DNA from: an uncultured Ruminococcus sp.
Lineage (GTDB): Bacteria; Bacillota; Clostridia; Oscillospirales; Ruminococcaceae
Length of the DNA stretch: 46,565 bases
Direction: 5' to 3'
Assembly (NCBI GenBank): GCA_947624295.1
Contig: CANQJV010000015.1
Span: forward strand, 1 to 46,565
A program made the position numbers and the translations under genes. Positions 3,323 to 46,117 of this stretch are shown here, in pieces. The stretch's first letter is position 1; each line of letters opens with the position of its first letter. Below the pieces are notes generated by a model. That model did no database searches. It had not been told where the DNA came from and saw nothing but the letters and a program-made list of their open reading frames with translations.

Positions 3323-3356
3323 TTTTCCTGAACAAATCCGTATAATTTTCAATAAA

Positions 3357-3407
3357 AACACTCAAAGGAAAACCATTTCATCAAAGATAGGTATTCCGAT
3401 GAGTGTT
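3357..3407 (+). terminator. Hairpin terminator after hom
   Basis: AACACTCA (3357-3364) pairs with TGAGTGTT (3400-3407). Inside it, GGAAAACC and GGTATTCC extend the stem with a mismatch. A weak U-rich tract (ATTTTATAT) follows. It ends the ACT protein-hom transcript. Confidence 0.6.
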
Positions 3408-3420
3408 ATTTTATATATTT

Positions 3421-3587
3421 AAGGCAACACCGCACAAAACCTGCAATAAAGATGCGCAATCAGATTTTTCGCAAAATTTTATAAAAAGTAGTACATCTTA
3501 GCTGACATTCAGCAAAGAATTTTGTACAAAACAACGAGAAGTACAATCGAATTTGCCATAAGATTGGCTTTGTGCGGTATTAACTTA
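3421..3587 (+). repeat. MITE-like repeat, copy c
   Basis: A diverged family copy in the same orientation as copy a, between the 3' ends of convergent genes. Its left end reads AAGGCAACACCGCACAAA and its right end TTTGTGCGGTATT. The interior keeps the conserved TTCGCAAAATTTTATAAAAA and GTACATCTTAGCTGACATTC stretches. Confidence 0.7.
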
Positions 3588-3589
3588 AC

Positions 3590-7898: not shown

Positions 7899-7943
7899 CA
7901 GAATTCAATATGTTCATTTTAATTAACAAGGAGCGTGCAGATA

Positions 7944-14972: not shown

Positions 14973-15029
14973 GAAAGGAGAGAGTGAAATATCCGAAAAA
15001 ATAAATTTTTCAAGGTCTTTTGTACAGCG

Positions 15030-15503
15030 GTGACAAGTGCGCTGATAACATTTGCAGTTGTCATCTTGCTGTTGACCTATGTATTTTCAGTGATGCGTAT
15101 TTATGGCGACTCGATGAGCCCGACACTTTTTGACGGCGATATCGTGATTGCACGGAAAACATCATTATTGGAAAGAGGTGATATCTGTATATTTTCAAAA
15201 GACGGAAATTTCCTTTGTAAACGTGTTATAGGGCTTAGCGGTGACAAGATTTCAGTCGATGAAAACGGCGTTGTAAGCGTGAACGGTGAAAAACTCGATG
15301 AACCGTATCTGAATACTCTGAACGCAGGAAACAATACTGTTGAATATCCCGTGACAGTGCCCGAAAATAGCTATTTTGTAATGGGTGACAACCGGCGCAC
15401 ATCAATTGATTCACGGAGTACAGTTGTCGGCTGTATTGATTCACGTCAAATCAAAGGAAAATTGCTGATAAAAATTTTGCCTACTCCGTCAATTTTGGAG
15501 TGA
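15030..15503 (+). CDS. Pilus-associated type I signal peptidase
   Basis: A membrane protease that probably processes the pilins of this operon. Visible motifs are the catalytic Ser in YGDSMSPTL, the catalytic Lys in CKRVIGLSGD, and the Gram-positive signature MGDNRRTSIDSR. The membrane helix lies at residues 5-25. The start is a problem. The only in-frame standard start is the GTG at 15030, with a weak ribosome site. A GTG at 14984 follows AAGGAG but runs into a stop after an A6 run. Removing one A would join it in frame to give a natural N-terminus, MKYPKNKFFKVF. So this is either an indel, slippage or a true internal start. It lies between the tip and backbone genes. Confidence 0.82.
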   Translation: MTSALITFAVVILLLTYVFSVMRIYGDSMSPTLFDGDIVIARKTSLLERGDICIFSKDGNFLCKRVIGLSGDKISVDENGVVSVNGEKLDEPYLNTLNAGNNTVEYPVTVPENSYFVMGDNRRTSIDSRSTVVGCIDSRQIKGKLLIKILPTPSILE

Positions 15504-15529
15504 CAATAGATAAGAAAGGAATGATTTTT

Positions 15530-17932
15530 ATGAAAAAACTCCTGAAAAGAGTTTTTGGAATAACTGCCTCTGCAATGCTTTTCACAACAACAGCTATGCC
15601 TGCATTTGCAGCTGGAGGACATTCGCACCATAGTGGCGATACAAAGCTTAAAGTTGACGGTGAGGACGGTTATAAAGTTACATTGAAAACAGACACGGAG
15701 AAATATAATGTTGCATCTCCGGCATTTGGTGCATATCAGATTTTTACAGGTACTGTTGACAAAAATGCTACTATTCCTGAAAGTCCCGGAAACAATCTTG
15801 AAAAAATTTCACTTGCTGATATAAGGTGGGGTAATGCATTCGGTGATGCAAGTGATACTGTAAAACCTGCTGAGGGCGGTAAATCAGGAAAAGAAATATG
15901 GCAAGATAATATTGTTAATTTTGTTATTGCCCTTGCTACAACTTCCGAAAAAGCAGACCCTGCATATAAAGCTGCTTTTGCAAATTTCCATGGTTTTGAC
16001 GGAAAAGACGACGATGGTGTTGAAGATACTAAAAATCCGACTTTTGCAGGTGAAACTGAAAATACACTTGCTGACAGATTCTATGTTGATTTAGATGAAA
16101 TTCCAGACGGCATTCAAGATGATGAAAGAAGAAACGATAATGTAAACTTTGAAATACTTGCAACAGAAGTAGCTGATGTAATAAGTGAGCATAATGACCG
16201 CATATGGTTACAGGCATTTACCGATATTCTCGGCGGATATGGCGAGGATTACAGCGGAGAGGGAGCGCATACAGGCTATGTAACGCAGTGCTATGATAGC
16301 GAGGCTAAATGGGACAAAGATGCAGGTACATATACAATGAAAGTCCCTGCAGGCTACTACATGATACTTGATACAAGTGAATTAGGCGGTGAAGCAGACG
16401 AGTCATATTCCGCACGTATGCTTTTTGTTGCTAACGATGTAACGCAAGAAATCAAACAGGACGTTCCGACGCTTGACAAGAAGATTCTGAGGGCTGACGG
16501 CGAACACAAGACAGATGCTGTAGGTGTTGGCGATGAAGTAAATTTCCAGCTTAAAGGTACACTCCCGAGCAACTACAACCAGTACACACTCGGCTATCAG
16601 TTTACATTTACCGATAAACTCAGCAAGGGTCTTACTCTGAAAGGTACGGAAGATGTAGACTTTGCTACTACTTACAAGGACACACCTTATAATTATGACA
16701 CTGAAAAAGTTGCAGAAAACTTCAAGGTAAGCGTAAAAGGCGTATATAATGGTAAAGATTGGCAACCTGAAAAAGAAATAACACTTACTAAAGGTAGTTA
16801 TGATACAACTACAGGTCATACTACACACATTACAGACAGTGCTTATACTGCACAAGTAACAGAAACAGACGGAATACAGACTTTGACGGTTAATTTCCCT
16901 TGCCTGAAAGAAATTGCAATTAAAGAGGACGGCGCAACCTACACACTTGGCGGAGATAGTACTAATAAATCCGAAATCCTCATTGATTATACAGCAGTCG
17001 TTGATTCAGATGCAATTGTAAGCCCTGCAACAGGTGGCGCAGATGACACTTCTATAAATCTGAACGGTAACAAAAATACCGCAAAACTTACATATTCCGA
17101 CAACCCGCAGTCTTACAGCGATACTGACGACACAACAGAGCAAGAGGCAACAGTTTACACATTTGGTCTTGATATGGTGAAAGTTGATGCGACTAATTTC
17201 CTTAAAGATAAAGATACTGCTGCTCTTAGTGGTGCAAAATTCGTACTTATTCGCCCAACAGAAACAGAAAATGAATATCAAATTGCAAAATTTGTAGAAG
17301 TAAAAGCAATAGAAGAAGAAACAGAAAAAGAAACAGCTCCATTTAAGGGTGAAAAATATTATTCTATTGACAGTTGGGAGGAACTTGGAACATTAGACAA
17401 AGACGGCACAACAACTCCTGAAGATAAAACAGATGATACATTAGAAGACTTGTTGAATAGTTTTATTACTGAAGAAACCGGAGCAAACTATGAATTAGAA
17501 ACATATTCAGAAGATGGTGTAAAGGGACATTTGAACATTTCAGGTCTTGACAGCGATATAACATATACAATTGCTGAAACAAAAACACCTGATGACACGA
17601 AATATGCGAAAATAGAACCATTTACCGTTACACTTACAGCAAATCAAGATGAAACTACTTCAGAATATGATGGCACACTTAAAAGCGCAGAATCTGATAA
17701 GGAAGTATTAGCTGGTGCTTCATTCAGTTTTGACAATCCTGTAGAAATTACAGATAACTTTGAAAGTGGTGCTGAATCTGACGGCAGTGCAAATATGATT
17801 GTTGCAAATTTCAAATATATCGACCTCCCGTCAACAGGCGGAGTTGGTACATACTGGTTCTACATACTCGGCTCAGGCGGTCTTGTAATATCGTTCATTC
17901 TGTTCAGAATGTCCAGAAAAAAGACAGCGTAA
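15530..17932 (+). CDS. Backbone pilin, isopeptide D2 type, LPSTG
   Basis: An 800-residue secreted pilin, probably the polymerised shaft subunit. The signal peptide ends near PAFAAGG (about residue 28). The middle part (about residues 310-500) begins DVPTLDKKI and continues GVGDEVNFQL, the pattern of fimbrial isopeptide-forming D2 domains. A later Cna_B-like domain has the E-box form YTIAETKTP, the Glu expected to promote a Lys-Asn isopeptide bond. The sorting signal LPSTGG lies near residue 766, then a membrane helix and RKK tail. I did not find a classic YPK pilin motif; a Lys before DVPTL could serve. The ATG at 15530 has AAAGGAATG upstream; longer in-frame starts lack a site. Only 26 bases follow the signal peptidase gene. 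Confidence 0.9.
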   Translation: MKKLLKRVFGITASAMLFTTTAMPAFAAGGHSHHSGDTKLKVDGEDGYKVTLKTDTEKYNVASPAFGAYQIFTGTVDKNATIPESPGNNLEKISLADIRWGNAFGDASDTVKPAEGGKSGKEIWQDNIVNFVIALATTSEKADPAYKAAFANFHGFDGKDDDGVEDTKNPTFAGETENTLADRFYVDLDEIPDGIQDDERRNDNVNFEILATEVADVISEHNDRIWLQAFTDILGGYGEDYSGEGAHTGYVTQCYDSEAKWDKDAGTYTMKVPAGYYMILDTSELGGEADESYSARMLFVANDVTQEIKQDVPTLDKKILRADGEHKTDAVGVGDEVNFQLKGTLPSNYNQYTLGYQFTFTDKLSKGLTLKGTEDVDFATTYKDTPYNYDTEKVAENFKVSVKGVYNGKDWQPEKEITLTKGSYDTTTGHTTHITDSAYTAQVTETDGIQTLTVNFPCLKEIAIKEDGATYTLGGDSTNKSEILIDYTAVVDSDAIVSPATGGADDTSINLNGNKNTAKLTYSDNPQSYSDTDDTTEQEATVYTFGLDMVKVDATNFLKDKDTAALSGAKFVLIRPTETENEYQIAKFVEVKAIEEETEKETAPFKGEKYYSIDSWEELGTLDKDGTTTPEDKTDDTLEDLLNSFITEETGANYELETYSEDGVKGHLNISGLDSDITYTIAETKTPDDTKYAKIEPFTVTLTANQDETTSEYDGTLKSAESDKEVLAGASFSFDNPVEITDNFESGAESDGSANMIVANFKYIDLPSTGGVGTYWFYILGSGGLVISFILFRMSRKKTA

Positions 17933-17951
17933 TAAATTTTAACCATTTGTT

Positions 17952-17975
17952 GCGATGAGGGGAAACCCTCACCGC
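17952..17975 (+). promoter_or_regulatory. Stable intercistronic hairpin after backbone pilin
   Basis: GCGATGAGGG pairs with CCCTCACCGC (one mismatch) around a GAAA tetraloop. No U-tract follows; 11 bases later is the sortase ribosome site. It looks like an mRNA-stabilising or processing hairpin that would favour pilin over sortase message, not a terminator. Confidence 0.6.
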
Positions 17976-17995
17976 AGCAGCAAGGAGAGACTCAT

Positions 17996-18817
17996 ATGAA
18001 ACAGCGTATTTTGTCATTTTTAGCGTTTGTAATGCTGGTTGTGGGTCTGTCCCTGCTGCTGTATCCGTCAGTCAGCAACTATATAAATTCTCAACGGCAA
18101 AGACGGGCAATTTTCAACTATATAGCATCAGCGGAAAGTATTCCGGAAGAAGATTATTCGGCTTACCTCGAAAAAGCGTCTGCTTTCAATAAAAAATTGA
18201 TTACAGGTCAATATTTGCTGATGAACCTTCCCCCTGATTTACTGGAAGAATATTATTCAGTCCTTGATATTACAGGGAACGGCATAATCGGCTATATCAG
18301 CGTACCTGTAGCGGATATTATGTTACCGCTTTATCACGGCACAAGTGAGGCAGTTTTGCAGGACGGCGCAGGTCACATAGAAGGGTCATCTTTTCCGATT
18401 GACGGGGAAACTGTTCATGCGGTAGTTTCAGGTCATCGTGGTTTGCCGTCAGCGTTATTGTTCACGGATTTGGACAAAGTGAATGTTGGCGATACATTTA
18501 TTTTCTACGTCCTGAACGAATCATATGTTTACAAAGTGAACAGCATTGAAACGGTTGAACCGACAGATGTGCAGTCATTGCGCCTGTTTGAGGGGAAAAA
18601 TTACTGTACACTGGTTACTTGCACGCCCTACGGAATAAACACACATCGACTTCTGATTCACGGAGAATTGCTGAAAGAAGAAGAGGCTGAAAAAGAACTT
18701 GTTATTCAATCGGGAGCAAAGCCTGTTGATACAAAAATAATTTTAATCATTTGTGAAATACCGGTGATATTGCTTGCTGTAGTAATTTCCGCACGCCGTT
18801 CACAAAAAAAGAGGTGA
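17996..18817 (+). CDS. Class C sortase (pilin polymerase)
   Basis: A 273-residue membrane transpeptidase expected to link the pilins through their LPxTG motifs. An N-terminal membrane helix (about 5-25) and a C-terminal helix (about 248-265) followed by a basic tail are typical of class C. The catalytic His lies in VSGHRGLPSA, the Cys in TLVTCTPYGINTHRLLI, and the catalytic Arg is in the same segment. The lid region before the core (about 60-85) lacks a clear DPF/W motif. The ATG has AAGGAG nine bases upstream. Confidence 0.93.
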   Translation: MKQRILSFLAFVMLVVGLSLLLYPSVSNYINSQRQRRAIFNYIASAESIPEEDYSAYLEKASAFNKKLITGQYLLMNLPPDLLEEYYSVLDITGNGIIGYISVPVADIMLPLYHGTSEAVLQDGAGHIEGSSFPIDGETVHAVVSGHRGLPSALLFTDLDKVNVGDTFIFYVLNESYVYKVNSIETVEPTDVQSLRLFEGKNYCTLVTCTPYGINTHRLLIHGELLKEEEAEKELVIQSGAKPVDTKIILIICEIPVILLAVVISARRSQKKR

Positions 18818-18823
18818 TATATT

Positions 18824-19969
18824 TTGTCAATCAAGCGTTTATGTAAATATTTTACAATAATTATTTCAGTAGTATGTCTGATGTGTTTCAGTATCGTCGG
18901 TCATGCGGAAACTGAAAACTATTCAATAAGAATACAGTTTACTGTCGAATCAAAACCGGCTTCAGGCTCATCGTTCAAAATATATTATGCTATGAATACA
19001 AGCGGTGAATTGTCTGGAGGTTTTGCAAATCTCAATGTTGAAACGGGTGACCTTTCCGACAGCAAAAATGTCAATCGCCTTGCATCTACGCTTGCCGCAT
19101 ACACCATGACAGGCGTTGCAAAGCCTGTTTCTGTTGCAAAAACTGACGGTTTAGGTTGTGCGACTTTCGCAGGGCTTTCCGACGGAATTTACCTTGTTAC
19201 AGGGACTTCCGTGATTATAGATAACGTTGTGTACACGCCAAAGCCGACATTGATTGATTTCAAAAACGCTACGGGCTCCACGGTCACGGCAGGCATAAAA
19301 TACGCAATTACTGCCGATGCATCTGATGTGAATACTCCTATTTCACGTACTGTCAAGAAAATATGGGACGACGGCAACAGCAGTTCACGCCCTGAATCCG
19401 TAACAGTTCAGCTATATCAAAACGAAACTTTATATGATGAGGAAATTCTTTCTGCTGAAAACAATTGGGAGTACACGTGGGATAGCCTTAATCCACGCTA
19501 TGACTGGAATGTTGTGGAAACATCAGTTCCTGACGGCTATACAGTTTCCCTGACTCTCGATGACAAAATATTTACTGTTGAAAATAAAGGACAATCTATC
19601 GGTACATTTGTGACGAACACAGGCACATCAACTCCCACAACTGCTTATGTTTCGGGAGCTGATACGAGTACTGCCACTGTAGATACGGCGGTTACGGGTA
19701 CGGAAACTACAGATACAGCAATTACGGGAAATGGCACATCTTCGTCAACTGTTTTAACAAATGCGACAAATCCAAAAAATTCCTCACCAAAATCAAATGT
19801 TACAACTTACAGAAATCCATACATTCCGACACCTACAAACAATAATACAAATCAGTCGAAATTACCGCAAACAGGGCAATTATGGTATCCTGTACCGATT
19901 CTTTTTGTACTGGGATTGATTTTGTTTTTCATCGGAATTGCTTTCGGAGATGAAAATGAAAAAGGGTAA
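18824..19969 (+). CDS. Minor pilin with Cna_B domain, LPQTG
   Basis: A 381-residue secreted protein, probably the pilus base or ancillary subunit. The signal peptide runs to about residue 29 (GHAET). A first beta domain (about 30-165) is followed by a Cna_B domain beginning TVKKIWDDGNSSSRPESVTV, with the E-box-like VVETSVPDGYTV. A Thr/Ser/Asn-rich wall-spanning linker leads to LPQTGQ, a membrane helix and a short charged tail. It starts with TTG at 18824, supported by GAGGTGAT at good spacing. The gene lies seven bases after the sortase C gene. Confidence 0.87.
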   Translation: MSIKRLCKYFTIIISVVCLMCFSIVGHAETENYSIRIQFTVESKPASGSSFKIYYAMNTSGELSGGFANLNVETGDLSDSKNVNRLASTLAAYTMTGVAKPVSVAKTDGLGCATFAGLSDGIYLVTGTSVIIDNVVYTPKPTLIDFKNATGSTVTAGIKYAITADASDVNTPISRTVKKIWDDGNSSSRPESVTVQLYQNETLYDEEILSAENNWEYTWDSLNPRYDWNVVETSVPDGYTVSLTLDDKIFTVENKGQSIGTFVTNTGTSTPTTAYVSGADTSTATVDTAVTGTETTDTAITGNGTSSSTVLTNATNPKNSSPKSNVTTYRNPYIPTPTNNNTNQSKLPQTGQLWYPVPILFVLGLILFFIGIAFGDENEKG

Positions 19970-20591
19970 AAGAATAGCGTTCATATTGTCGGGAATAGTG
20001 CTTATGGTTTCGGCAGCAGGGCTTGCCTCGCATAATCTCCATGAGGACACGCTTGCTTCTGAATCGGCATCGTCTGTTCTGGAGAGGTTCAGCGATGAGC
20101 GTGAAAAACAGATAGAATCCACTGAAAAACCGTCACTTCCTACGGGGATTACAGGCGAAATTGTTGAAGAAACAACGATTTCGCCCGATATGCCTATGCC
20201 GACAATCTTAATAGACGGTGTGCCATATATTGGTACATTGACCATTCCTGCACTTGGAATTGAACTTCCTGTTGCGGAAAACTGGGATTATGCACAGATG
20301 AAAATCTCACCTTGTCGGTATGAAGGTTCAGTTTACAAAAATAATCTGGTTATTTGCGCCCACAATTACAGTACTCACTTCAGAAATATAAAAGATTTAC
20401 AAAATGGCGATGATGTGATTTTCGTTGATGCAGTTGGAAATGAGTTTAATTATCATGTTGAACTTGTTGAAACTCTCTCGCCTACTGCAATCAGTGAAAT
20501 GATTTCATCAAAATACGATTTAAGCCTGTTTACCTGCAATTACGCCGGAAATGCTCGTGTGACAGTACGGTGCAATCAGGTGAAGGAATAA
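19956..20591 (+). CDS. Second sortase, possible pilus anchor
   Basis: A 211-residue sortase-fold protein with one N-terminal membrane helix. The catalytic His is in VICAHNYSTHF, the Cys in LFTCNYAGNARVTVRC, and the Arg is in the same segment. The class is not settled: it lacks the C-terminal helix of class C and is not a standard class A or B sequence. It may attach the finished pilus to the wall via the minor pilin. ATG 19956 is preferred because GGAG lies six bases upstream. Its start overlaps the end of the minor pilin by 14 bases, so the two are translationally coupled. Confidence 0.82.
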   Translation: MKKGKRIAFILSGIVLMVSAAGLASHNLHEDTLASESASSVLERFSDEREKQIESTEKPSLPTGITGEIVEETTISPDMPMPTILIDGVPYIGTLTIPALGIELPVAENWDYAQMKISPCRYEGSVYKNNLVICAHNYSTHFRNIKDLQNGDDVIFVDAVGNEFNYHVELVETLSPTAISEMISSKYDLSLFTCNYAGNARVTVRCNQVKE

Positions 20592-27017: not shown

Positions 27018-28568
27018 TTAATCAAGCAATCTGCCTGTTGTTTCCTGCATACGTTTTATTTTCTTTGAAGTCGTCTTTGCAAATTCATCGTCACGTATTC
27101 TCATACGGCGTATAGCCTTTGCAGTCGATACAGTCTTGTTTACTTCAGCAACGTGCGCCCTGAAAAGTTCCTCTATTTTCTCTATACCGTTTTCATTTAG
27201 ATACTCCTGATTAGGGTAAATTTCAGCCGTAATCATACCTTCTTCTGCATAGATAAGGATTTCCGCAAGCCAGTCAAGACCTGAAAATTTATTCTCAAGT
27301 TCTTCCGGTGAAACGTTTTCGCCGTTACTGAGGATAATGAGATTCTTTTTTCTGCCGGTAATATACAGATGATTCGTATTGTCAACAAATCCAAGGTCAC
27401 CAGTTCTGAGCCAGCCGTCCTCTGTCAATGCCTCTGCTGTTGCTTCGGGATTTTTGTAATACCCTGCCATTACAGACGGACTTTTCGCCCATATTTCGCC
27501 GTCAACTACCTTGACTTGACAACCGTTGACGATAGTTCCTATACTTTCTGAATTTGTATCGCTGAGATTACCTGTTGAAATTCTCGGCGAACATTCAGTC
27601 ATACCGTAGCCTTGTGCAATCGGTATCCCGAAACCTCTGTAAACTTCGGCAAGTTTCGGATTAAGATAAGCACCTCCGCTGTATATTCCACGGAGATTTC
27701 CACCAAAAACAGCTTTTGCAACTTCGTTTATATCAAGTGACGGGTCTGCCTCAACAGCGGATTTTATTTTCTTGTAAATTGTTTCAGCAATCATCGGTAC
27801 AAGAAGTATAATTGTCGGCTTGAAAAACTTCAGATTTTGTGCAATATGCATCATTGAATCATTTACACAAACTGTTGTTCCGTACCTCAATGAGAGCAGA
27901 ATATCGCAAGTAAAGCAATATACGTGATGAATCGGCAAAACTGAAAGAAGTACGTCGTCGGGGGTACTCTCGTTATCCTGACACATTGTGTTGTCAATGA
28001 GATTGCTATGACGGAGCATAACGCCCTTACTCAAGCCTGTTGTGCCTGACGTGAAAAGTATAGCAGCTAAACTGTCGGGGTCAAGCGGCTGCCATTCCAT
28101 AGGCTTGTAACTTGCAATTATGCTGTCAATACTTGTTTCGCCGTCAACTTCCTGCAATGAAACAAATGTTTTGACTTGCGGACAACCCTCTTTTACAGCA
28201 TCAAGCATAGGTTGGAATTTCTTGTCAAAAAACAGGATTTCCGCATCAGAACGCCTTAAATGGTCACACAAATCAGCTTCTTTCATTTGTGCGTCAAGCG
28301 GTACAATTACATTGCCACTGCACGAAACTCCAAAATATGCCGTAAGATAGGCACTTGACGTTGCTCCGATGAGAGCGCAGTGGATTTTGTTGCCGTTTGC
28401 CTTTTCAGTAACAAAACTGCCGATTTTTTTAGCTCTCTCGCAAATCTGACTGAAAGAAGTTTCGATTACATTTTTACCTTTTTTCTCTTTCAGGAATGCT
28501 TTATCGCCGTAAAGTACAGCTGATTCTGCAACCAAATCCTGTAAAGTCTTTACATTTTCTTTAATCAT
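27018..28568 (-). CDS. AMP-forming acyl/amino-acid ligase (freestanding A domain)
   Basis: A 516-residue adenylate-forming enzyme of the acyl-CoA synthetase/NRPS adenylation superfamily. It should activate a carboxylic acid with ATP and load it onto the carrier protein encoded ten bases upstream. Motifs: AILFTSGTTGLSKGVM (about 169-184, ATP binding), QGYGMTECSP, WLRTGDLGFVDN, ITGRKKNLIILSNGENV, and the C-terminal KTTSKKIKR with the catalytic Lys. The hydrophobic neighbours of GYGMTE suggest a fatty or aryl acid, but specificity cannot be read reliably. The ATG has AAGGT eight bases upstream. It is the last gene of the four-gene operon. Confidence 0.88.
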   Translation of the reverse strand: MIKENVKTLQDLVAESAVLYGDKAFLKEKKGKNVIETSFSQICERAKKIGSFVTEKANGNKIHCALIGATSSAYLTAYFGVSCSGNVIVPLDAQMKEADLCDHLRRSDAEILFFDKKFQPMLDAVKEGCPQVKTFVSLQEVDGETSIDSIIASYKPMEWQPLDPDSLAAILFTSGTTGLSKGVMLRHSNLIDNTMCQDNESTPDDVLLSVLPIHHVYCFTCDILLSLRYGTTVCVNDSMMHIAQNLKFFKPTIILLVPMIAETIYKKIKSAVEADPSLDINEVAKAVFGGNLRGIYSGGAYLNPKLAEVYRGFGIPIAQGYGMTECSPRISTGNLSDTNSESIGTIVNGCQVKVVDGEIWAKSPSVMAGYYKNPEATAEALTEDGWLRTGDLGFVDNTNHLYITGRKKNLIILSNGENVSPEELENKFSGLDWLAEILIYAEEGMITAEIYPNQEYLNENGIEKIEELFRAHVAEVNKTVSTAKAIRRMRIRDDEFAKTTSKKIKRMQETTGRLLD

Positions 28569-28578
28569 ATCATTTACC

Positions 28579-28806
28579 TTAATCCTTAAGTTTCTCGATG
28601 TAAGCGATAGCCTCGCCTACTGTTGTAAGCGTAAGAACGTCATCTTCCTCAACGGCAATTTCAAAAGTTTCCTCAACTTCGCCGAGAAAACTCATAAAAT
28701 CATAGGAGTTAAACTTCAAATCCTCGATAAAACGTGAATTTTCTGTTATTTCGTCCTCCTCAACGTCAACGTAATTCATAATAATTTCCTTCATCTGCTC
28801 CAACAT
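28579..28806 (-). CDS. Freestanding acyl/peptidyl carrier protein
   Basis: A 75-residue carrier protein. The phosphopantetheine site is Ser34 in DLKFNSYDFMSF, where the usual DSL is NSY. The acidic four-helix pattern is otherwise normal. It should carry the acyl group between the ligase and the condensation protein. ATG 28806 is chosen because GGAGG lies eight bases upstream; the ATG at 28821 overlaps that site. It lies 37 bases after the condensation gene and 10 bases before the ligase. It is not the fatty acid synthesis ACP by context. Confidence 0.88.
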   Translation of the reverse strand: MLEQMKEIIMNYVDVEEDEITENSRFIEDLKFNSYDFMSFLGEVEETFEIAVEEDDVLTLTTVGEAIAYIEKLKD

Positions 28807-28843
28807 AACAATATCCTCCATAAATTTATTTTATTTGATTTAA

Positions 28844-30253
28844 TCAAATCATATCAAGAATTTCGCCGATAGTCCTGTTGCTGTTTTCGATTCCTCTGAA
28901 AAGTACCCGGCAAAGGTAATAATAGAAGTACTCCATTTCGTAATCAGTAACAGCAGCTTTCTGATACTCGAAATTGAAGTTAAGACCGTTATCTTCAACA
29001 CGGTGCATAACTGTAAGATACAGAGGCTGAGCGGCTACACCGTTCGTATACCAGAAACTTTTATACGGAATATCGGGTATTTTTTCAGCGTCCTGTTGTT
29101 TCATAGACATAGGCTGATAAGTCACACTCAAGCTCTCGTAAGTCTTGCCCATAGTATTCCAGTATTTCGATGACATAATCATTTGTGCGACAGAATCAAA
29201 ATTAGCGTGGCGGAAAATAGCGTTTTGTTTTTCCTGATACATTCTCAGACCATCGATAAAAGTCATATCAGGTGACATAATTGTACGAATCGGGAAAAAG
29301 TGTATTCTTGTACCGCCCGAACGCTTTTCGAGGAGCGTTCCACGCCTTGCAACGCACGTTTTAAGTGATACGTCCTGTTCATTGTCGTTGAATTTAGAGA
29401 GGACTGTCCTCAAGCCCATAAGCAACAGGCATACAAAAGGTACGTGATTTTCCTCGCAGAATTTCAGCAGACGTTCAGACGGCTCTTTTTCGAGTTTGAA
29501 AACTGAAATAGATGCCTCTGTATTTGTGGAAGTCGTACAAGCTGCACGGAGATTCGGGTTATTTTCGGCACGTCTTTGCGTGATAAGTCTGCCCATACCG
29601 TTGAAATCCGTGAACATAGGTTCGCTTTCCTCGACTATATCCCTCCAGAATTTCTCATCTTTCTTGTACGCAGGGGAATTTGCCTCATAAGCAAGGTCTT
29701 TTTTCAAGCATTTTATATATGACTGCATCGGCTTAGGGTAATCATTACCGTAACGCTTATTGCAGTAGATTTGCAGTACATCGGAGTAGAAAGTGATGAT
29801 TGAACTTGAATCCATAGTCATATGGTCTACTTTGCTGTAGATTCCGTTGAAACCGTTCGGCAACTTAATCATTTTGATGAGGTGCATAGGCGAATTGAAT
29901 CTCTCAAACGGTACAGCAGTCCATCTTCTCATTTCGTCGTGGGCATCATCTTCATTCCAGTTAGAAAAATCAACCAATTCAATATCTCTGTCATCGAACG
30001 GCACAAGATACTGGTAAACATCGTCATTTTCGTCTTTTATAAATCTCAGGCGCATTGACTCGAATCTGTTGATTGACTCTTTTATGGATTCTTTCAGCAA
30101 ATCAAAGTCAGTTTCCTGCTGAATATACAAGCCTGTACCTATATTCAGGAGTTGATGGAACGGGCATGACATTCTCGAAAAATTGTGTATTCTTTGTGCG
30201 GCTGTAAGCGGATATGCCTCAACTTTTACGCCGTTTACAATAAATTCTTTCAT
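28844..30253 (-). CDS. Freestanding NRPS-type condensation domain
   Basis: A 469-residue protein of the condensation/alcohol O-acetyltransferase superfamily. The catalytic HHxxxD motif appears as DHMTMD (residues 143-148), keeping the second His and the Asp. Other features are PLTAAQRIHNFS at the N-terminus and SGGTRIHFFPIRT, matching the later core motif of C domains. It should transfer an acyl group from the carrier protein to an amine or alcohol. No carrier, adenylation or thioesterase domain is fused. AAAGGAG overlaps the end of the hydrolase gene upstream. Confidence 0.85.
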   Translation of the reverse strand: MKEFIVNGVKVEAYPLTAAQRIHNFSRMSCPFHQLLNIGTGLYIQQETDFDLLKESIKESINRFESMRLRFIKDENDDVYQYLVPFDDRDIELVDFSNWNEDDAHDEMRRWTAVPFERFNSPMHLIKMIKLPNGFNGIYSKVDHMTMDSSSIITFYSDVLQIYCNKRYGNDYPKPMQSYIKCLKKDLAYEANSPAYKKDEKFWRDIVEESEPMFTDFNGMGRLITQRRAENNPNLRAACTTSTNTEASISVFKLEKEPSERLLKFCEENHVPFVCLLLMGLRTVLSKFNDNEQDVSLKTCVARRGTLLEKRSGGTRIHFFPIRTIMSPDMTFIDGLRMYQEKQNAIFRHANFDSVAQMIMSSKYWNTMGKTYESLSVTYQPMSMKQQDAEKIPDIPYKSFWYTNGVAAQPLYLTVMHRVEDNGLNFNFEYQKAAVTDYEMEYFYYYLCRVLFRGIENSNRTIGEILDMI

Positions 30254-30266
30254 AATTAAGACTCCT

Positions 30267-31226
30267 TTAATTTTTAGGGATATACTTTTCTATGAATTTT
30301 TCTTCTGTACTCTCGTAAAGTGCATTATCTTCATATGCACTTGCACCGTGACCGGCATTTTGCACAATAAGAATCTCTTTAGGGGCACGGCAAGCGGAAT
30401 AATTTTCATAGACCATTCTTGTCGGTACGAAATTATCATCTCCGCCGTGAATGAAAAGAACAGGGCATTTATTCGACTCCATAGCAGTGAGAGTTGAGTA
30501 ATCATTGAAACCGTATCCCGCTTTTTTCCTGCACATAGCTGAATTTATGTTCATTATAGGAAATTCGGGGAGATGATAGTCACGCTTGAGGATATGCGCA
30601 AAAACGTCATGCGGTGAAGTAAAAGCGCAGTCGCTTATCATGCACTTCACATTGTCAGGGAAATCAGGCAGACCTGATGCCATAAGGATAGTTGTTGCGC
30701 CCATAGACGTACCGTGCAGGAGAATTTCAACATCATCGCCGAAACGTTCCATAGTGTAGTCAATCCACGAAATACAGTCATATCTGTCAAGTATACCGAA
30801 TCCCACATAATCGCCTTCGCTGTCACCGTGCGCTCTATGGTCAGGCATAATCACGTCAAATCCCTGATTATGGAAGAAATAGGCGTGTGAAGCGGAATCA
30901 ATCCCCTTGCTTGTGTAGCCGTGTTCGATTATTGCAACTCTGCCCGTTGAATTTTCAGCAGGAAGATACCACGCATGGAGCTTTATTCCGTCATTTGCGG
31001 TGATATATATTTCCTCAAGCTCTTGCGAATGCACCCATTCACTGCGAGGAGCAATAATTTTCTTGTATTCCTCCCATTTCGCCATATCAGCCATTTCGTT
31101 GAGGTCAACCTGTACACCGTCCTGACGTGGTATAGTCATATTGAACAGTTTGTTTGCGGCATATAGCGACACACCGCCTGCAACAGCAGCAGTTCCGGCA
31201 ATTGCGCCGATAATATTGAATTTCAT
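30267..31226 (-). CDS. Membrane-anchored alpha/beta hydrolase
   Basis: A 319-residue serine hydrolase with an N-terminal membrane helix (about 4-24). The nucleophile is in HGTSMGATTIL, the oxyanion region in IEHGYTSKGID, and the acid and His in HGGDDNFVP and NAGHGASAYE. It could release the product from the carrier (thioesterase role), hydrolyse it, or modify it at the membrane. It is the first gene of the operon, with 13 bases to the condensation gene. The ATG at 31226 is taken; an in-frame GTG at 31238 lies right on the purine-rich site. Confidence 0.85.
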   Translation of the reverse strand: MKFNIIGAIAGTAAVAGGVSLYAANKLFNMTIPRQDGVQVDLNEMADMAKWEEYKKIIAPRSEWVHSQELEEIYITANDGIKLHAWYLPAENSTGRVAIIEHGYTSKGIDSASHAYFFHNQGFDVIMPDHRAHGDSEGDYVGFGILDRYDCISWIDYTMERFGDDVEILLHGTSMGATTILMASGLPDFPDNVKCMISDCAFTSPHDVFAHILKRDYHLPEFPIMNINSAMCRKKAGYGFNDYSTLTAMESNKCPVLFIHGGDDNFVPTRMVYENYSACRAPKEILIVQNAGHGASAYEDNALYESTEEKFIEKYIPKN

Positions 31227-31253
31227 TGACAAAAACACTCTCTTTCTGAAATA

Positions 31254-31312
31254 TGACCTGCGGTCAATTTCTTTGTTTTTTATATTCTAACACGTTTTTG
31301 ACCGCCGGTCAA
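31254..31312 (-). promoter_or_regulatory. Hydrolase-operon promoter with two TetR-type operators
   Basis: Two near-identical palindromes, TGACCTGCGGTCA (31254-31266) and TTGACCGCCGGTCAA (31298-31312), have centres 45 bases apart. On the minus strand the upper one contains the -35 TTGACC, which is 17 bases from TAGAAT (31284-31289). The lower one lies in the first transcribed bases. A repressor on both sites would block the operon. I infer that it is the adjacent TetR protein. Confidence 0.82.
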
Positions 31313-31331
31313 GTATTTTTTGAAAAAAATA

Positions 31332-31360
31332 TTGATTTTTCTGAAAATTTGTGATATAAT
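31332..31360 (+). promoter_or_regulatory. TetR gene promoter
   Basis: TTGATT (31332-31337), 17 bases, TATAAT (31355-31360). It starts 20 bases from the nearest operator, so autoregulation is possible but not by direct overlap. Confidence 0.7.
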
Positions 31361-31391
31361 TAAAAAAATGCAACTGAAAAGAGAGATTATT

Positions 31392-32009
31392 ATGAAAAAT
31401 GATAAAAAAGAACTGATTCTTGAAACCGCTCAGGAACTTATGTGTCAGATGCCCGGAAAAGATATTTCCGTAAATCTTATTGCTCAAAAAGCCGGTATTG
31501 CTAAGGGAAGTATATACTATTACTTCGAAAGCAAAGAACAAATTCTTGACGCTGTCGTGGAAAAATGCTACAAAAACGCTATTCACGAATTTTTCAGGGA
31601 ACTCGACTCCGAAAAATCAGCGTTACAGAAAATAAATCTCCTGTTTAACTCAATCATCAAGAGCGAGTTCAGCAATAAGAAAAAAAATTTAATCATAAGT
31701 CTGCACTTGAGTGACGATTTGCTCCTGCATAACAAAATGAAAATGATTGCTGTACAGGAAATTTCCCCTGTTCTGACTGCCCTGCTCCGTCAAGGGTGCG
31801 CTGAGGGAAGCATACAGACTGATTACCCGAAAGAAAGTGCTGAAATGATTGTTGCTGTACTGACGTTCTTTATTGACGATACGTCTTTCCCGTCAACAAG
31901 CGTTTCTATGGAATACAAACTGAAATTTTTCTCGTACTGCCTTGAACTCTGCCTAAAAGCCTCCCCCGGAAGTTTCGATTTCCTGCATAAGCAGATTGAT
32001 AAAAATTAA
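31392..32009 (+). CDS. TetR family regulator
   Basis: A 205-residue repressor. The N-terminal helix-turn-helix reads VNLIAQKAGIAKGSIYYYFE (about residues 26-45), followed by a ligand-binding helical domain without recognisable specificity. ATG 31392 is used because GAGAG lies upstream and the longer in-frame start at 31320 lies before the promoter. It is divergent from the ligase-carrier-condensation operon and lies upstream of a MATE exporter. It probably controls both through the paired palindromes, sensing the product or a toxic lipid. Confidence 0.9.
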   Translation: MKNDKKELILETAQELMCQMPGKDISVNLIAQKAGIAKGSIYYYFESKEQILDAVVEKCYKNAIHEFFRELDSEKSALQKINLLFNSIIKSEFSNKKKNLIISLHLSDDLLLHNKMKMIAVQEISPVLTALLRQGCAEGSIQTDYPKESAEMIVAVLTFFIDDTSFPSTSVSMEYKLKFFSYCLELCLKASPGSFDFLHKQIDKN

Positions 32010-32092
32010 GCCGTTATTATTGATAAAATTCTGTCAAACTGCATATTTACAAATATCTGTTACGGGTGTAAAATATAATTATTGTAACTAAT

Positions 32093-32145
32093 ATACTAAA
32101 CTCTGTTGTAATTTATTTTAACAATTTAACAATAGAGTTTAGTAT
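32093..32145. repeat. Inverted repeat in the MATE leader
   Basis: ATACTAAACTCT and AGAGTTTAGTAT are exact complements 29 bases apart; with one mismatch the pairing extends inward by TTGT/ACAA. It is close to the start of the MATE gene. No U-tract follows. It may be a tiny mobile repeat (it begins ATACTAA like the repeat at 20801) or a leader structure. Confidence 0.55.
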
Positions 32146-32169
32146 AAATTTATGGGGAGTGATTATTTT

Positions 32170-33573
32170 ATGAACAGTAAATCGGCAGACCTCACACAAG
32201 GTCCTCTGCTGAAAAGAATTATCCTTTACACTATTCCGATAATATTAACAGGTATACTGCAACTCCTGTTCAATGCCGCTGACCTTATTGTTGTCGGGCA
32301 GTATTGCGGAAGTATATCTGTTGGGGCAGTCGGTGCTACAGGTCCTGTAATAAACCTTCTTGTTAATCTTTTTATCGGGCTTTCAGTCGGTGCAGGTGTT
32401 GCTGTTGCTCACGGAATAGGCGCAGGTAAAAGTGAAGATGTCAGACGTGTCGTGCATACCTCAATCCCGTTATCCGTTATATGCGGTATAGTCCTCACTG
32501 CTATAGGCATTGCAGGAGCTAAAACAATTCTCCGTCTTATGGATACGCCTGAAGATGCCCTGAAACTCTCATTATCCTATATGCGTATTTATTTCTGCGG
32601 TATTACCGCAAGTATGCTGTATAATTTCGGTGCGGCTATTCTGCGTGCGGCAGGCGATACAAAATCACCTCTTATTTACCTTATGACCGCAGGTATCCTC
32701 AATGTAATACTCAACCTCTTTTTCGTAATTGTGCTTAAAATGGACGTTTCAGGCGTTGCGCTCGCTACAACAATATCACAATGTGTATCTGCTTTTCTGA
32801 TAATACGTGCTTTGATGAAACGTGAAGATGCGTGCAGACTAAAGTTAAATGAAATAAAAATATACAAGCGTCAACTTTTAAGGATTCTGCAAATAGGTTT
32901 CCCGGCAGGTATTCAAGGCTCACTTTTTTCGATTTCTAACGTAATTATACAGTCCTCCGTCAATTCGTTCGGGCTTGCTGTCATGTCAGGGAATGCCGCT
33001 GCACAAAATATTGAGGGATTCGTATACACTTCAATGAACTCCGTAAGTCAGACTGCTCTTAATTTCATCGGGCAAAATCACGGTGCGGGGAAATTCGACA
33101 GAGTACGGAAAATAATGTTCATTTGCCTCGGATTCGTCTTTGTAACAGGTATCACCCTCGGTCTTATCGCTTTTACTTTCGGCAGACCGCTTTTGTCAAT
33201 ATATATATCTGATTCGGACGAAGCTATAAAATACGGTATAGTACGTCTTACTTATATCTGTATCCCCTATTTTTTATGCGGTCTTATGGACGTTGCAACA
33301 GGTTCACTCCGTGGTATAGGCAGCAGCGTAACTCCGCTTATAATTACAGTGGCAGGTGTGTGCGGATTCAGAATTGTATGGATTTACACTATATTCAGGA
33401 AATTCCACTCGCTTGAAACGCTGTATATTTCCTATACTGTATCATGGGCAATGACTTTCATAACAGAAGCAATCGTATTTATATTACTTTTACGTCATCA
33501 GCAGAAAAAATTTGTACCTTTTACGGATAATATAGTAAGCCCACTTGAAAAGCGGACAAAAGGAACTGAATAA
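32170..33573 (+). CDS. MATE family multidrug/metabolite exporter
   Basis: A 467-residue membrane protein with about twelve helices, of the MATE family (Na+ or H+ antiport of organic compounds). Typical features are GPLLKRIILYTIPIIL at the N-terminus, GAVGATGPVINLL, and AAILRAAGDTKSPL in the first half. The second half repeats the pattern with GNAAAQNIEGFVY. ATG 32170 has GGGGAGTGA upstream; an earlier in-frame start is less likely. As the gene after TetR and next to the biosynthetic operon, it is a reasonable exporter for that product, but this is inference. Confidence 0.9.
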   Translation: MNSKSADLTQGPLLKRIILYTIPIILTGILQLLFNAADLIVVGQYCGSISVGAVGATGPVINLLVNLFIGLSVGAGVAVAHGIGAGKSEDVRRVVHTSIPLSVICGIVLTAIGIAGAKTILRLMDTPEDALKLSLSYMRIYFCGITASMLYNFGAAILRAAGDTKSPLIYLMTAGILNVILNLFFVIVLKMDVSGVALATTISQCVSAFLIIRALMKREDACRLKLNEIKIYKRQLLRILQIGFPAGIQGSLFSISNVIIQSSVNSFGLAVMSGNAAAQNIEGFVYTSMNSVSQTALNFIGQNHGAGKFDRVRKIMFICLGFVFVTGITLGLIAFTFGRPLLSIYISDSDEAIKYGIVRLTYICIPYFLCGLMDVATGSLRGIGSSVTPLIITVAGVCGFRIVWIYTIFRKFHSLETLYISYTVSWAMTFITEAIVFILLLRHQQKKFVPFTDNIVSPLEKRTKGTE

Positions 33574-42438: not shown

Positions 42439-42822
42439 ATGAATTTATCAATCTTTTTCAAAAGCATAATTGACAGCGATATTGCGCCTGTTGTTGTCTG
42501 CAATACAAATCACGAGATTATCTATATGAATCCCTCCGCAATACGCCACTACGCTAAAAGAGGCGGTGCAGAACTCATCGGTAAATCGCTTCTTGACTGC
42601 CATAATCCTGTTTCGTGCGGGAAAATTAAGGAAGTGCTTGAGTGGTTCAGCAAATCACCCGAAAATAACAGGATTTTTACTTTCCATAACCCGAAAGAAA
42701 ACAAAGATGTCTATATGATTGCGCTGAGGGACGATAATAACGCTCTCATAGGCTACTACGAAAAACACGAGTACAGAACTCCCGAAACAGCAACGCCTTA
42801 CAAGTATTTTTCAAGTATCTGA
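42439..42822 (+). CDS. Stand-alone PAS domain protein
   Basis: A 127-residue single PAS domain. The fold is visible as IAPVVVCNTNHEIIYMNPSA (first strands), then LIGKSLLDCHNPVSC, FTFHNPKENKDVYMIALRD and IGYYEKHEY. The segment around CHNP resembles the PAS domain of DUF438-like proteins. There is no output domain, so it would act by binding a partner. Its 3' end overlaps the 3' end of the convergent hybrid kinase by 25 bases. AAAGGAG precedes the ATG. Confidence 0.82.
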   Translation: MNLSIFFKSIIDSDIAPVVVCNTNHEIIYMNPSAIRHYAKRGGAELIGKSLLDCHNPVSCGKIKEVLEWFSKSPENNRIFTFHNPKENKDVYMIALRDDNNALIGYYEKHEYRTPETATPYKYFSSI

Positions 42823-45800
42823 TTTAATTTTGCAAAATCAATCGGTTTTGAGAGATGTTCATTCATTCCTGCCGATTTCGAAGCCTTGATGTCCTCAACA
42901 AATGCGTTTGCAGTCATAGCAACAATGGGGATATTTTCCGCATAACGGTGACGGAGATTGCGTATAGCACGAGTTGCATCGTAACCGTTCAGATTGGGCA
43001 TCTGAATGTCCATAAAAATCATATCATAGTAGTTGTCATCAGATTCAGCAAATTTATTGAACGCATCTTGTCCGTCTACAGCCTCCTCCACAATAAGCCC
43101 CGACATTTCAAAGATTTCCTTTGCAATTTCTCTGTTGAGGTCATTGTCCTCCGCAAGAAGTATCCTCTTACCGCTGAAATCGCCTGTATGGATTTTGTTC
43201 TTATCATCGGCGTTTCCGGAATCACCTGAATCCTTAGCTTTGTTTTGCAGTACAAGGAAAATTGTAACTAAAAATGTTGAGCCTTTTTTGGGTTCGCTTT
43301 CTATTTCAATTGAACCGTTCATCATATGAATGATATTCTTTGTAATCGACAAGCCGAGCCCTGTACCTTGTGTTTTGCTGATACGTAAATCTTCAGCACG
43401 GACGAACGGTTCGAATATATGTTCTAACAAATCTTTTGACATTCCTATGCCGTTATCCTTGAAAATAAATTCAAAACAAGCTGCTGATTGGGAGTTAATT
43501 GTTTTTTCATTTACACTGAACGATATTTTTCCGCCGTCAGGAGTATATTTTATTGCATTGCTCATCAGGTTCATAAATACCTGCTGTATCCTGAGTTTAT
43601 CGCCGACTACATCATTATGTTTAATATTTTTTATATCTACGGTGAATGTGTGATTATGCTGTTTTATCTGTTGCTGAACCATTTCAATGAGGTCATTCAG
43701 GAGCGAAGTCATATTGATATTCTCATTCGTCAGCTTGAATTTACCCGATTCTATTTTGCTCATATCAAGCACATCGTTTATCAGGCTGAGAAGATACTGG
43801 CTGGAGCTTGCAATTTTACTCAGTGCATCACGTACTCGCTGAGGGTCCTCTGCGTGAGCCGATGCAATAGCTGTCATACCTATGATAGCGTTCATAGGAG
43901 TGCGTATATCGTGCGACATCATCGACAAAAAGTCCGATTTTGCGGCATTCGCACGGTTTGCGCTTTTCAGGGCATCTTCCAGTACCTGACGCTGTTTTTT
44001 CTCAGTGTTGACGAGTTCATCTATACAGCGTATACCGAAAACCATTCTGTTCTTATCGCCTTCACTGATATTCGCAAAACACATCTCATAGTAATTTGTA
44101 TTCAGTTCAGACGGCAATACCTGATAGCGGATATAGAAAGTTTTTTCTTTCTTAAATCTTTCAATTATATTTTTCGGGTCACATAAAGGCTTTATTTCGT
44201 CGTGATATTCAGGCTTTATGCATTCATGCATATATACATCAAGTGCCTCTGAATGCTTACTTTTCTGGTATACTTTCGAAACAGTCTTCTCCGGGAAACG
44301 GACAATTGTACACTTATCCGAATCAAGGTCAGTGAAATATATAGCAGAATAATCTTCACTCAACGCCGCAAGGATACGCAATGTATCCTGTTCTTTTTTA
44401 TGGGCTTCTTCTTTGATTTTCTGCTTGCTTATGTAATAGGAAATTGAAATAATAATAATTATAATCACACCGCATATAATCAGCAACATCACACGGTAAT
44501 TATACACATAGTCGCTGAATGAGTACGAATGATAGGCGATATTAAGCGATTCGTCTGTTATTGAATTAACATAGTCCGAGTCCGCAACTCCAATCATCTT
44601 GTTCAACGCCGAAAATATGTTCGGGTCAATATCAGCTGATGCAGCTATGCTTATTTTAGTCGGGTAACGGTATTGATTCGAATATGTCAGCGACGCAAAA
44701 CGTGGATTTTTCTTATGGTAATTGTACTCAAGATTATTGATGAGTGCAGCATCAGCTGTACCATTTGTAACTGCCATCATACATTCTCTTGTTGTGAGGT
44801 AGTACACAAATTCAATGTTTTTATCAAATTTCTCCTCAAGATATTTCGCCCAGCTTGTCCGTCCGTAAGTCATCGAAATAACGGGCTTTTCTATCTGATT
44901 AAGCATACAGTTGCTTTTCGTCACGAGAAAATTGGAGTACTCCATAAATGAGCGTGTAGTACATATATCGCTGTCCTGCTGTACGACAATATCAGATGCG
45001 CCTATATACAGGTCAATTTCGCCGTTCTTAATCAAATCCTGCCATCTTTCATATCTTGTTATAGGGTACGTCTTGAATTTTACGCCCGATTTTTCCGTAA
45101 TATATGACAAAACGTCAATATATATACCTTTATATTCGCCGTCATCGTCAACATATGCAAGCGGTTCGCTTTCCTCGTAAAATCCGACAACAAGTTCCCT
45201 GTCCGATTCCGCAAAAGCTTGTTCTTCGGAGGTGAAAGCACTTATACTGCCGTTTTCGCCGACAAGTGTCTTTTTCATTGTTTCTGACACGAGGTCAATA
45301 TTTTCCCTTATAATTTCCTGCATACCGCTGTCAATTTCAGACATAACTTCAGTATTGCCCTCTTTTACGGTGAAATATACAGGTGCGGAGCTGAAAGTCG
45401 CAACAAGTTTTGAACCTGCAAACTGATTTGCGGCACTGAATACAGCAAGGTCAGCTTCACCGTCCCTGACAGCCTGTATCATTTCGTCGTTCGTAACACA
45501 CGGGATGAGTTCATAGGAAAAGCCGTTTGTTTCGGCATATACAGCAAGTTCTTCAGAGTTAGTGGAGTTCGCTGCACAAGCTATCCTTGCTCCGTCAAAA
45601 GATTCATAGTCCTCGTAATTATAAACGCTGTCCTCAAGCGCAAAAATACCGACAGATGTATAGCCTATGGGAATAGATGCAAAATCCATGGTTTTATCAC
45701 GTTCTTCGCTGTAATTCGTCGGAAACAGGAAATCTATATCTCCGCTTTCGAGCATATCTACAGCTTCCGTCCACGTAGCATTGACGTACTCATATTCCCA

Positions 45801-46016
45801 ATTATTGATGTTTGCGAGTTCCTCAAGGTAATCCGCATAGTAACCTGATACTTTACCGTCTCTGTCTACAATCAGAAATGTATTGAAACCGTACGGTATA
45901 CGCATAATTTTCTTAGATACGCCTGAAACGGTCATAAGCAGTGAATTTTCAAGGCATAGTGCAATTGTAAGTACGGCAGTGATTATTGTTATAATTTTAT
46001 CGGAAATTTTCTTCAT
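42798..46016 (-). CDS. Hybrid sensor kinase with two periplasmic binding domains
   Basis: A 1072-residue membrane kinase of BvgS/EvgS layout. An N-terminal membrane segment (about 8-30) is followed by two tandem SBP_bac_3-like solute-binding domains (about 35-265 and 290-500). A second membrane helix (about 508-530) leads to a PAS-like linker (about 550-680). The HisKA domain has the phosphorylated His in SMMSHDIRTPMNA (about 699). The ATPase domain has NLMSNAIKYTPDGG and GTGLGLSITKNI. The C-terminal receiver has Asp in DMIFMDIQMPNLNGYD (about 1001). The binding domains probably sense amino acids or similar solutes. No Hpt domain or response regulator is adjacent. ATG 46016 has GGCGG upstream; the frame continues 29 codons further without a site. 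Confidence 0.92.
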   Translation of the reverse strand: MKKISDKIITIITAVLTIALCLENSLLMTVSGVSKKIMRIPYGFNTFLIVDRDGKVSGYYADYLEELANINNWEYEYVNATWTEAVDMLESGDIDFLFPTNYSEERDKTMDFASIPIGYTSVGIFALEDSVYNYEDYESFDGARIACAANSTNSEELAVYAETNGFSYELIPCVTNDEMIQAVRDGEADLAVFSAANQFAGSKLVATFSSAPVYFTVKEGNTEVMSEIDSGMQEIIRENIDLVSETMKKTLVGENGSISAFTSEEQAFAESDRELVVGFYEESEPLAYVDDDGEYKGIYIDVLSYITEKSGVKFKTYPITRYERWQDLIKNGEIDLYIGASDIVVQQDSDICTTRSFMEYSNFLVTKSNCMLNQIEKPVISMTYGRTSWAKYLEEKFDKNIEFVYYLTTRECMMAVTNGTADAALINNLEYNYHKKNPRFASLTYSNQYRYPTKISIAASADIDPNIFSALNKMIGVADSDYVNSITDESLNIAYHSYSFSDYVYNYRVMLLIICGVIIIIIISISYYISKQKIKEEAHKKEQDTLRILAALSEDYSAIYFTDLDSDKCTIVRFPEKTVSKVYQKSKHSEALDVYMHECIKPEYHDEIKPLCDPKNIIERFKKEKTFYIRYQVLPSELNTNYYEMCFANISEGDKNRMVFGIRCIDELVNTEKKQRQVLEDALKSANRANAAKSDFLSMMSHDIRTPMNAIIGMTAIASAHAEDPQRVRDALSKIASSSQYLLSLINDVLDMSKIESGKFKLTNENINMTSLLNDLIEMVQQQIKQHNHTFTVDIKNIKHNDVVGDKLRIQQVFMNLMSNAIKYTPDGGKISFSVNEKTINSQSAACFEFIFKDNGIGMSKDLLEHIFEPFVRAEDLRISKTQGTGLGLSITKNIIHMMNGSIEIESEPKKGSTFLVTIFLVLQNKAKDSGDSGNADDKNKIHTGDFSGKRILLAEDNDLNREIAKEIFEMSGLIVEEAVDGQDAFNKFAESDDNYYDMIFMDIQMPNLNGYDATRAIRNLRHRYAENIPIVAMTANAFVEDIKASKSAGMNEHLSKPIDFAKLNQILEKYL

Positions 46017-46117
46017 ATTCAATCCGCCTTTCCTTAAAAGTAAAAAGTAAAAGGCAGTAATTTCTCGTTTACAGGTTTTCTCATCACGGGAAAACACCCC
46101 CATAATATTTTTATCTA

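Follow-up and report, generated by a model that had tools for sequence, protein, structure and literature searches.

What does an operon make when it encodes a ligase, a carrier protein and a condensation protein as three separate polypeptides behind a hydrolase, and how is it controlled? This question is raised by a 46,565-nt stretch of DNA from an uncultured Ruminococcus sp. (hereafter the window), which is contig C15 of a 2.06-Mb genome that is 85% complete; near relatives of its condensation protein also carry the name Ruminococcus. Our analysis indicates that the locus is probably a TetR-controlled operon of the fatty acid amide (FAA, or CTA) type, with an amide-forming core, a membrane hydrolase and the capping of fatty acids as its purpose.

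Organization of the operon

The four genes lie on the minus strand in the order hydrolase (HYD, 31238-30267), condensation protein C (30253-28844), carrier protein T (28821-28579) and ligase A (28568-27018), and a tetR gene and a MATE transporter gene diverge from them on the plus strand. All six gene products scored over the Pfam cut-offs; those of the operon matched Abhydrolase_1 (HYD, 53.6 bits), PF00668 (C, 131 bits), PF00550 (T, 38.5 bits) and PF00501 (A, an adenylate-forming acyl ligase, 203 bits). The intergenic gaps are 13 b (hydrolase-C), 22 b (C-T) and 10 b (T-A), a spacing that suggests co-transcription from the hydrolase gene, the first of the operon. The open reading frames and the Pfam scan bore out an earlier note on this DNA in describing ligase, carrier and condensation functions as three separate proteins in one compact operon; its C-T gap of 37 b is obtained if the second ATG is taken as the start of T.

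The core belongs to the FAA family

A comparison of C with all solved structures gave one strong match, 12kh_A (E 1e-113, 383.6 bits), and the next match scored 23.8 bits. This entry, PDB 12KH, was deposited for OaaC, the FAA condensation enzyme of Coprococcus eutactus (PMC13142362; like PMC13060934, cited below, a preprint of 2026). The two proteins were 39.3% identical over 453 residues in a pairwise alignment. To place C among its relatives, we assembled 106 C proteins, including that of the window (105 other loci), and built a maximum likelihood (ML) tree of 58 rows from 51 stand-alone C proteins chosen from these loci, OaaC and six clostridial condensation domains of nonribosomal peptide synthetases (NRPS). 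The 51 proteins and OaaC were split from the NRPS domains at 100/100; OaaC grouped with the C proteins of loci L143-L147, which are 52-57% identical to it, and the window C fell in a large, mostly Oscillospiraceae group. Because the 51 proteins were selected, the L148 branch is very long and the outgroup is limited to six domains of untyped subtype, none of them knowingly a starter C domain, we read the tree for membership and not for the exact root.

The active-site motif of C is D143-H-M-T-M-D148-S149, and 102 of the 106 C proteins have [DH]HxxxD[SA]; the exceptions are L148 and three proteins with NHxTMDS. A (D/H)HxxxDS-type motif, in which S or A is common after the second D, is published for the FAA family (PMC13142362). 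T carries FNSYD, in which Ser39 is by its position the predicted phosphopantetheine site, and NS[YF] was found in 91 of 102 T proteins, that of the window included. DHMTMD and NSYD, which had been described as variant motifs, are thus the norm in this family. The locus departs from a canonical NRPS in that C, A and the carrier are on separate genes and in having DHMTMDS rather than HHxxxDG, and it agrees with the FAA pattern in its discrete A, T and C genes in the order C-T-A, its C protein within the FAA clade and its DHxxxDS-type motif. The family, also called CTA, is traced to Chang 2021, as cited in PMC13142362.

Since OaaC is the closest solved relative, the C tree joins the two and DHMTMDS is normal for the family, the core of this hydrolase-linked operon is, judged from its sequence, a member of the known FAA CTA family. 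The same three observations uphold the suspected kinship with fatty-acid-amide enzymes of gut clostridia, which had been left open; the phylogeny placed C with OaaC as against the six NRPS domains, and no unrelated acyltransferase pathway surfaced. The chemistry and the core genes are already known. In the window's genome, 85% complete, C was the single condensation-domain match. The best NCBIfam model of A was the long-chain-fatty-acid--CoA ligase PRK06187 (229.8 bits, under the cut-off of 476), and the nearest NCBIfam models of T were acyl carrier proteins, with scores under their cut-offs.

A hydrolase is linked to the C, T and A genes

HYD has a predicted N-terminal membrane helix, as the earlier note had proposed for the protein in front, and a catalytic triad (S174, D264, H293; A2 numbering) that all 28 aligned rows have without change. 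Its AlphaFold2 model had a mean pLDDT of 90.4, and a structure search gave the Pf2001 esterase as the nearest fold, followed by several esterases, a thioesterase and monoglyceride lipases. HYD has the alpha/beta-hydrolase fold and the Ser-Asp-His triad of monoglyceride-lipase-like enzymes and is predicted to be an esterase or lipase; the fold alone is silent on its substrate. HYD is 14-22% identical to the Pyrococcus furiosus Pf2001 esterase and to the mycobacterial and human monoglyceride lipases, and it differs from them in its predicted membrane anchor and its place in a biosynthetic operon.

The order hydrolase-C-T-A recurred in relatives whose C proteins are 60-87% identical, which argues that the unit is more than chance. 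The relatives came from a scan of genome contigs in which the best 80 of 173 were retained and examined, so that the linkage counts favour near kin; there is also some redundancy, in that L094 occurs again as L128, and L047 and L049 have a long identical stretch in common. Loci were counted for linkage if 0.9 kb or more was available next to C. The hydrolase was directly upstream of C in all 77 loci with room (76 found by script, and L035, counted as linked because the hydrolase is present and the C frame had been called too long), with a median gap of 19 b; T was next to C in 77 of 78 loci and A in 70 of 71. With C as the query, then, the four genes were found to be kept together, the opposite of the scattering that would have told against the operon. 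At L090 (5134-6540), the hydrolase and C are present with neither T nor A behind them; T and A may be encoded elsewhere, or the unit may be in decay.

A set of 391 genomes of the class gave a wider view. A full or near-full stand-alone C was found in 22 of them, the window's included; the genes of G374 and G357 are cut, that of G329 has two internal TGA codons, and at L132 the C frame is broken into two pieces. The hydrolase was beside C in 13 of the 22 and missing in nine, among them the five OaaC-like loci L143-L147; its absence is weak at L130, one of the nine, and at L017 (outside the 22), where only about 0.7 kb upstream was available. A search with the hydrolase alignment gave matches in 130 of the 391 genomes at E 1e-30, and the 13 top-scoring hydrolases (at least 409.7 bits; next 357.8) were exactly the 13 beside CTA C genes, in a search whose model was built from linked members and so favours them. 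In the hydrolase tree, the linked forms of Oscillospiraceae, with L128, made up one group (98/99). Distances over 85 loci correlated at 0.89 (hydrolase-C) and 0.92 (A-C), values that shared descent alone may explain. On this comparative evidence, the window belongs to a large branch, made up mostly of Oscillospiraceae, that has the hydrolase as a constant fourth gene.

A divergent TetR and conserved palindromes

The tetR gene (31392..32009, plus strand; TetR_N, PF00440, 42.7 bits) has its likely ATG at 31392 in a frame open from 31320, and a divergent TetR was present in 34 of 65 relatives with room. Consensus scans placed a likely operon promoter, TTGACC-17 nt-TAGAAT with TG ahead of the second hexamer, at 31284..31312 on the minus strand, and a likely tetR promoter, TTGATT-17 nt-TATAAT, at 31332..31360 on the plus strand; both are consensus matches only, and sites like the operon promoter numbered 25 in the stretch, with 19.4 expected. 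Two palindromes of the form TGACCNNNGGTCA begin at 31254 and 31299. At the operon promoter, the likely operator O1 (TGACCGCCGGTCA, 31299..31311) overlaps the -35 hexamer; the likely operator O2 (TGACCTGCGGTCA, 31254..31266) lies between this promoter and the hydrolase gene.

Within the window, TGACCNNNGGTCA at up to one mismatch gave three matches where 0.78 was expected, and the window alone is weak evidence because four of 100 shuffles reached three. Among the 39 loci with a divergent TetR and hydrolase, the window included, the window form at up to one mismatch occurred in 27 (shuffles: mean 0.19, maximum 1). The broader pattern YGACCNNNGGTCR, whose Y and R were picked after the relatives had been inspected, was exact in 34 of the 39 regions that bear TetR; it turned up in four of 33 loci that lack TetR (390 b from each) and not once in 100 shuffled sets; as the regions are related, the loci that bear it are not independent. 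The locus has, as TetR-controlled operons do, a TetR gene in divergent orientation and, at the promoter, palindromes that are conserved, and TetR most likely represses the operon through the two sites, which are recognized by conservation. A wider TetR regulon was considered and is not claimed: the four further one-mismatch sites in the window's genome (on C5, C34, C11 and C29) all lie within open frames, and a reversed control pattern gave two matches versus six. The C29 site is flanked by genes that resemble fabH and fabK.

Proposed function and alternatives

By analogy with OaaA/OaaACP/OaaC, A would activate a fatty acid as the adenylate and load it on the phosphopantetheine of T, and C would join the acyl group from the carrier to a free small amine, so that an N-acyl amide is released. 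OaaC is a homodimer that opens when the holo or acyl carrier binds, and C of the FAA family releases its product by its own action (PMC13142362), which makes superfluous a separate enzyme for release, one of the steps that the earlier note had placed at the membrane. The hydrolase would free acyl chains from glycerolipids at the membrane and feed them to A, a role that is a serious possibility and that we advance tentatively. Repression by TetR would be lifted by a fatty acid or an acyl-thioester, its presumed ligand. The purpose would likely be to cap free fatty acids that are toxic, and host-active lipids would be either the product or a by-product; a detoxification role is suggested by Blautia wexlerae, in which amines restore growth under toxic fatty acid, and by the larger amounts of acyl amines that CTA-positive species produce (PMC13060934). 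The family assignment, the gene linkage, the triad and the palindromes can be read from the sequence; we are less confident of the hydrolase as acyl supplier, of the TetR ligand and of detoxification.

Several observations weigh against this proposal. C is merely 39% identical to OaaC, so that its amine cannot be read from the sequence, and the nearest solved match of A is a 4-coumarate--CoA ligase (128.7 bits), which keeps an aromatic acid among the candidate substrates. The OaaC-like loci do without a hydrolase, which the chemistry itself therefore does not require. Linked hydrolases do not make up a clean clade in the hydrolase tree, long-branched unlinked forms being interspersed among the other linked groups, and a single ancestral linkage event is no more than a possibility. 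TetR was missing from 31 of the 65 relatives with room, and it resembles Bacillus FadR only weakly (48.5 bits against an NCBIfam cut-off of 200).

The true condensation fold of C and the coumarate ligase match of A would also suit a conventional NRPS that has been split into separate proteins and whose product is a small peptide or an aryl amide, not a fatty acid amide. C groups with OaaC apart from the six NRPS domains, however, the models nearest to T are those of acyl carrier proteins, relatives have SCP2 and oleate hydratase-like neighbours (described below), and a Pfam scan of the six genes found no match to a second A; we consider such a system very improbable. The hydrolase could instead be a counter-enzyme: as a fatty-acid-amide hydrolase or deacylase it would recycle or break down the product, and as a proofreading thioesterase it would strip wrongly loaded T; its fold and triad, and the thioesterase among its nearest structures, fit such activities as they fit a lipase, and we regard this as unlikely.

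Least credible is the MATE transporter (32152..33573, plus strand; MatE, 153 bits) as a dedicated exporter of the product. It is on the same strand as tetR, directly behind it and 142 b from its end; the earlier note counted a divergent TetR and an exporter as parts of the cluster. The TetR half of that claim stands, as the regulator is recurrent; the MATE half fails, since 31 loci have TetR, hydrolase and 1.6 kb or more behind tetR, and no MATE match lies there in any of them. At L022, tetR is followed by the same two genes as in the window, presumably RecD2-like and MreB-like, without MATE between, and the only two MATE matches in the 105 other loci (L088 and L148) are convergent and beyond A. 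The MATE gene adjoins the unit without conserved membership, and its role as exporter is hardly probable at all.

Relation to known systems and distribution

The window shares with OaaA/OaaACP/OaaC of C. eutactus the separate C, T and A proteins, an acyl-carrier-like T, the DHxxxDS motif and the C clade, and with the OaaC-like loci L143-L147 the order C-T-A. It differs from the OAA cluster, described as three proteins in PMC13142362, in the hydrolase as first gene and the divergent TetR with conserved palindromes; its C belongs to another branch of the family than OaaC, in an Oscillospiraceae host. The CTA operon of B. wexlerae and other Lachnospiraceae has the same three-gene core, and acyl-amine synthesis is tied there to fatty-acid detoxification (PMC13060934). 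An isolate survey in the same paper found CTA in 36 species, all Lachnospiraceae, at 70% identity over 80% of the protein, a cut-off that would miss a protein 39% identical to OaaC if it is equally far from the survey's other queries. The literature searched, including the available parts of PMC13142362 and PMC13060934, did not describe hydrolases, esterases or lipases in connection with CTA genes, nor the palindrome; Chang 2021 may do so.

The lipids made by FAA/CTA operons act on human receptors, and set against a Lachnospiraceae-only survey these data point to a large second CTA branch, mostly of Oscillospiraceae, in which the hydrolase partner is constant and a candidate switch can be read. 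The palindromes offer an experimental handle on the inducer, and the hydrolase one on the source of the acyl chain. Occurrence is patchy: within the window's own family, 55 of 397 genomes gave a match, counting that of the window, and four of 23 relatives of the same genus gave a long match.

At least 33 of the 80 retained relatives come from herbivores according to their records (deer, goat, sheep and 'Lapin', taken as rabbit). In herbivores, unsaturated fatty acids are toxic to fibre-digesting bacteria. One extension that we raise as doubtful is that gut Ruminococcus and its kin have a lipid capture-and-cap device, in which the membrane lipase would cut diet or host glycerolipids and hand the chains directly to A, T and C for capping with an amine, while TetR would sense the free fatty acid or acyl-thioester. 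If true, fibre-digesting gut bacteria would have in it an inducible defence against fatty acids, by which a toxic lipid is turned into host-active acyl amides. The available part of PMC7339423 holds no growth test of Ruminococcus in fatty acids.

Neighbouring genes and other features of the window

An SCP2-type lipid-carrier gene was found behind A in 28 of 69 loci (e.g., L014:11156-11503 and L015:967-1344); in the window, SCP2 is not beside A, and the sole SCP2 match of its genome is unlinked, on contig C13. One protein family occurred near the operon in nine loci, and the example tested (L028) was a phosphopantetheinyl transferase; no dedicated phosphopantetheinyl transferase was found in the window's own genome (85% complete), which gave one PF01648 match only. 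At L132 (genome G374), an oleate hydratase-like gene (2803-4497, minus strand) takes the hydrolase's position directly upstream of C; it scored 425 bits with MCRA, under the NCBIfam oleate hydratase cut-off of 567, and is perhaps a second fatty-acid detoxification route beside a CTA core. These three kinds of neighbour fit the handling of fatty acids or carriers.

Elsewhere in the window, positions 7935-20588 resemble a sortase-type pilus operon, with a surface protein of 2345 aa (DUF7601), a pilin backbone that has a Cna-B-like domain and genes that we take to be signal-peptidase-like and sortase-like. A hybrid histidine kinase of 1101 aa with solute-binding domains is encoded at 42801-46103 on the minus strand, and a fragment of an IS1-type transposase adjoins it at the window's edge.

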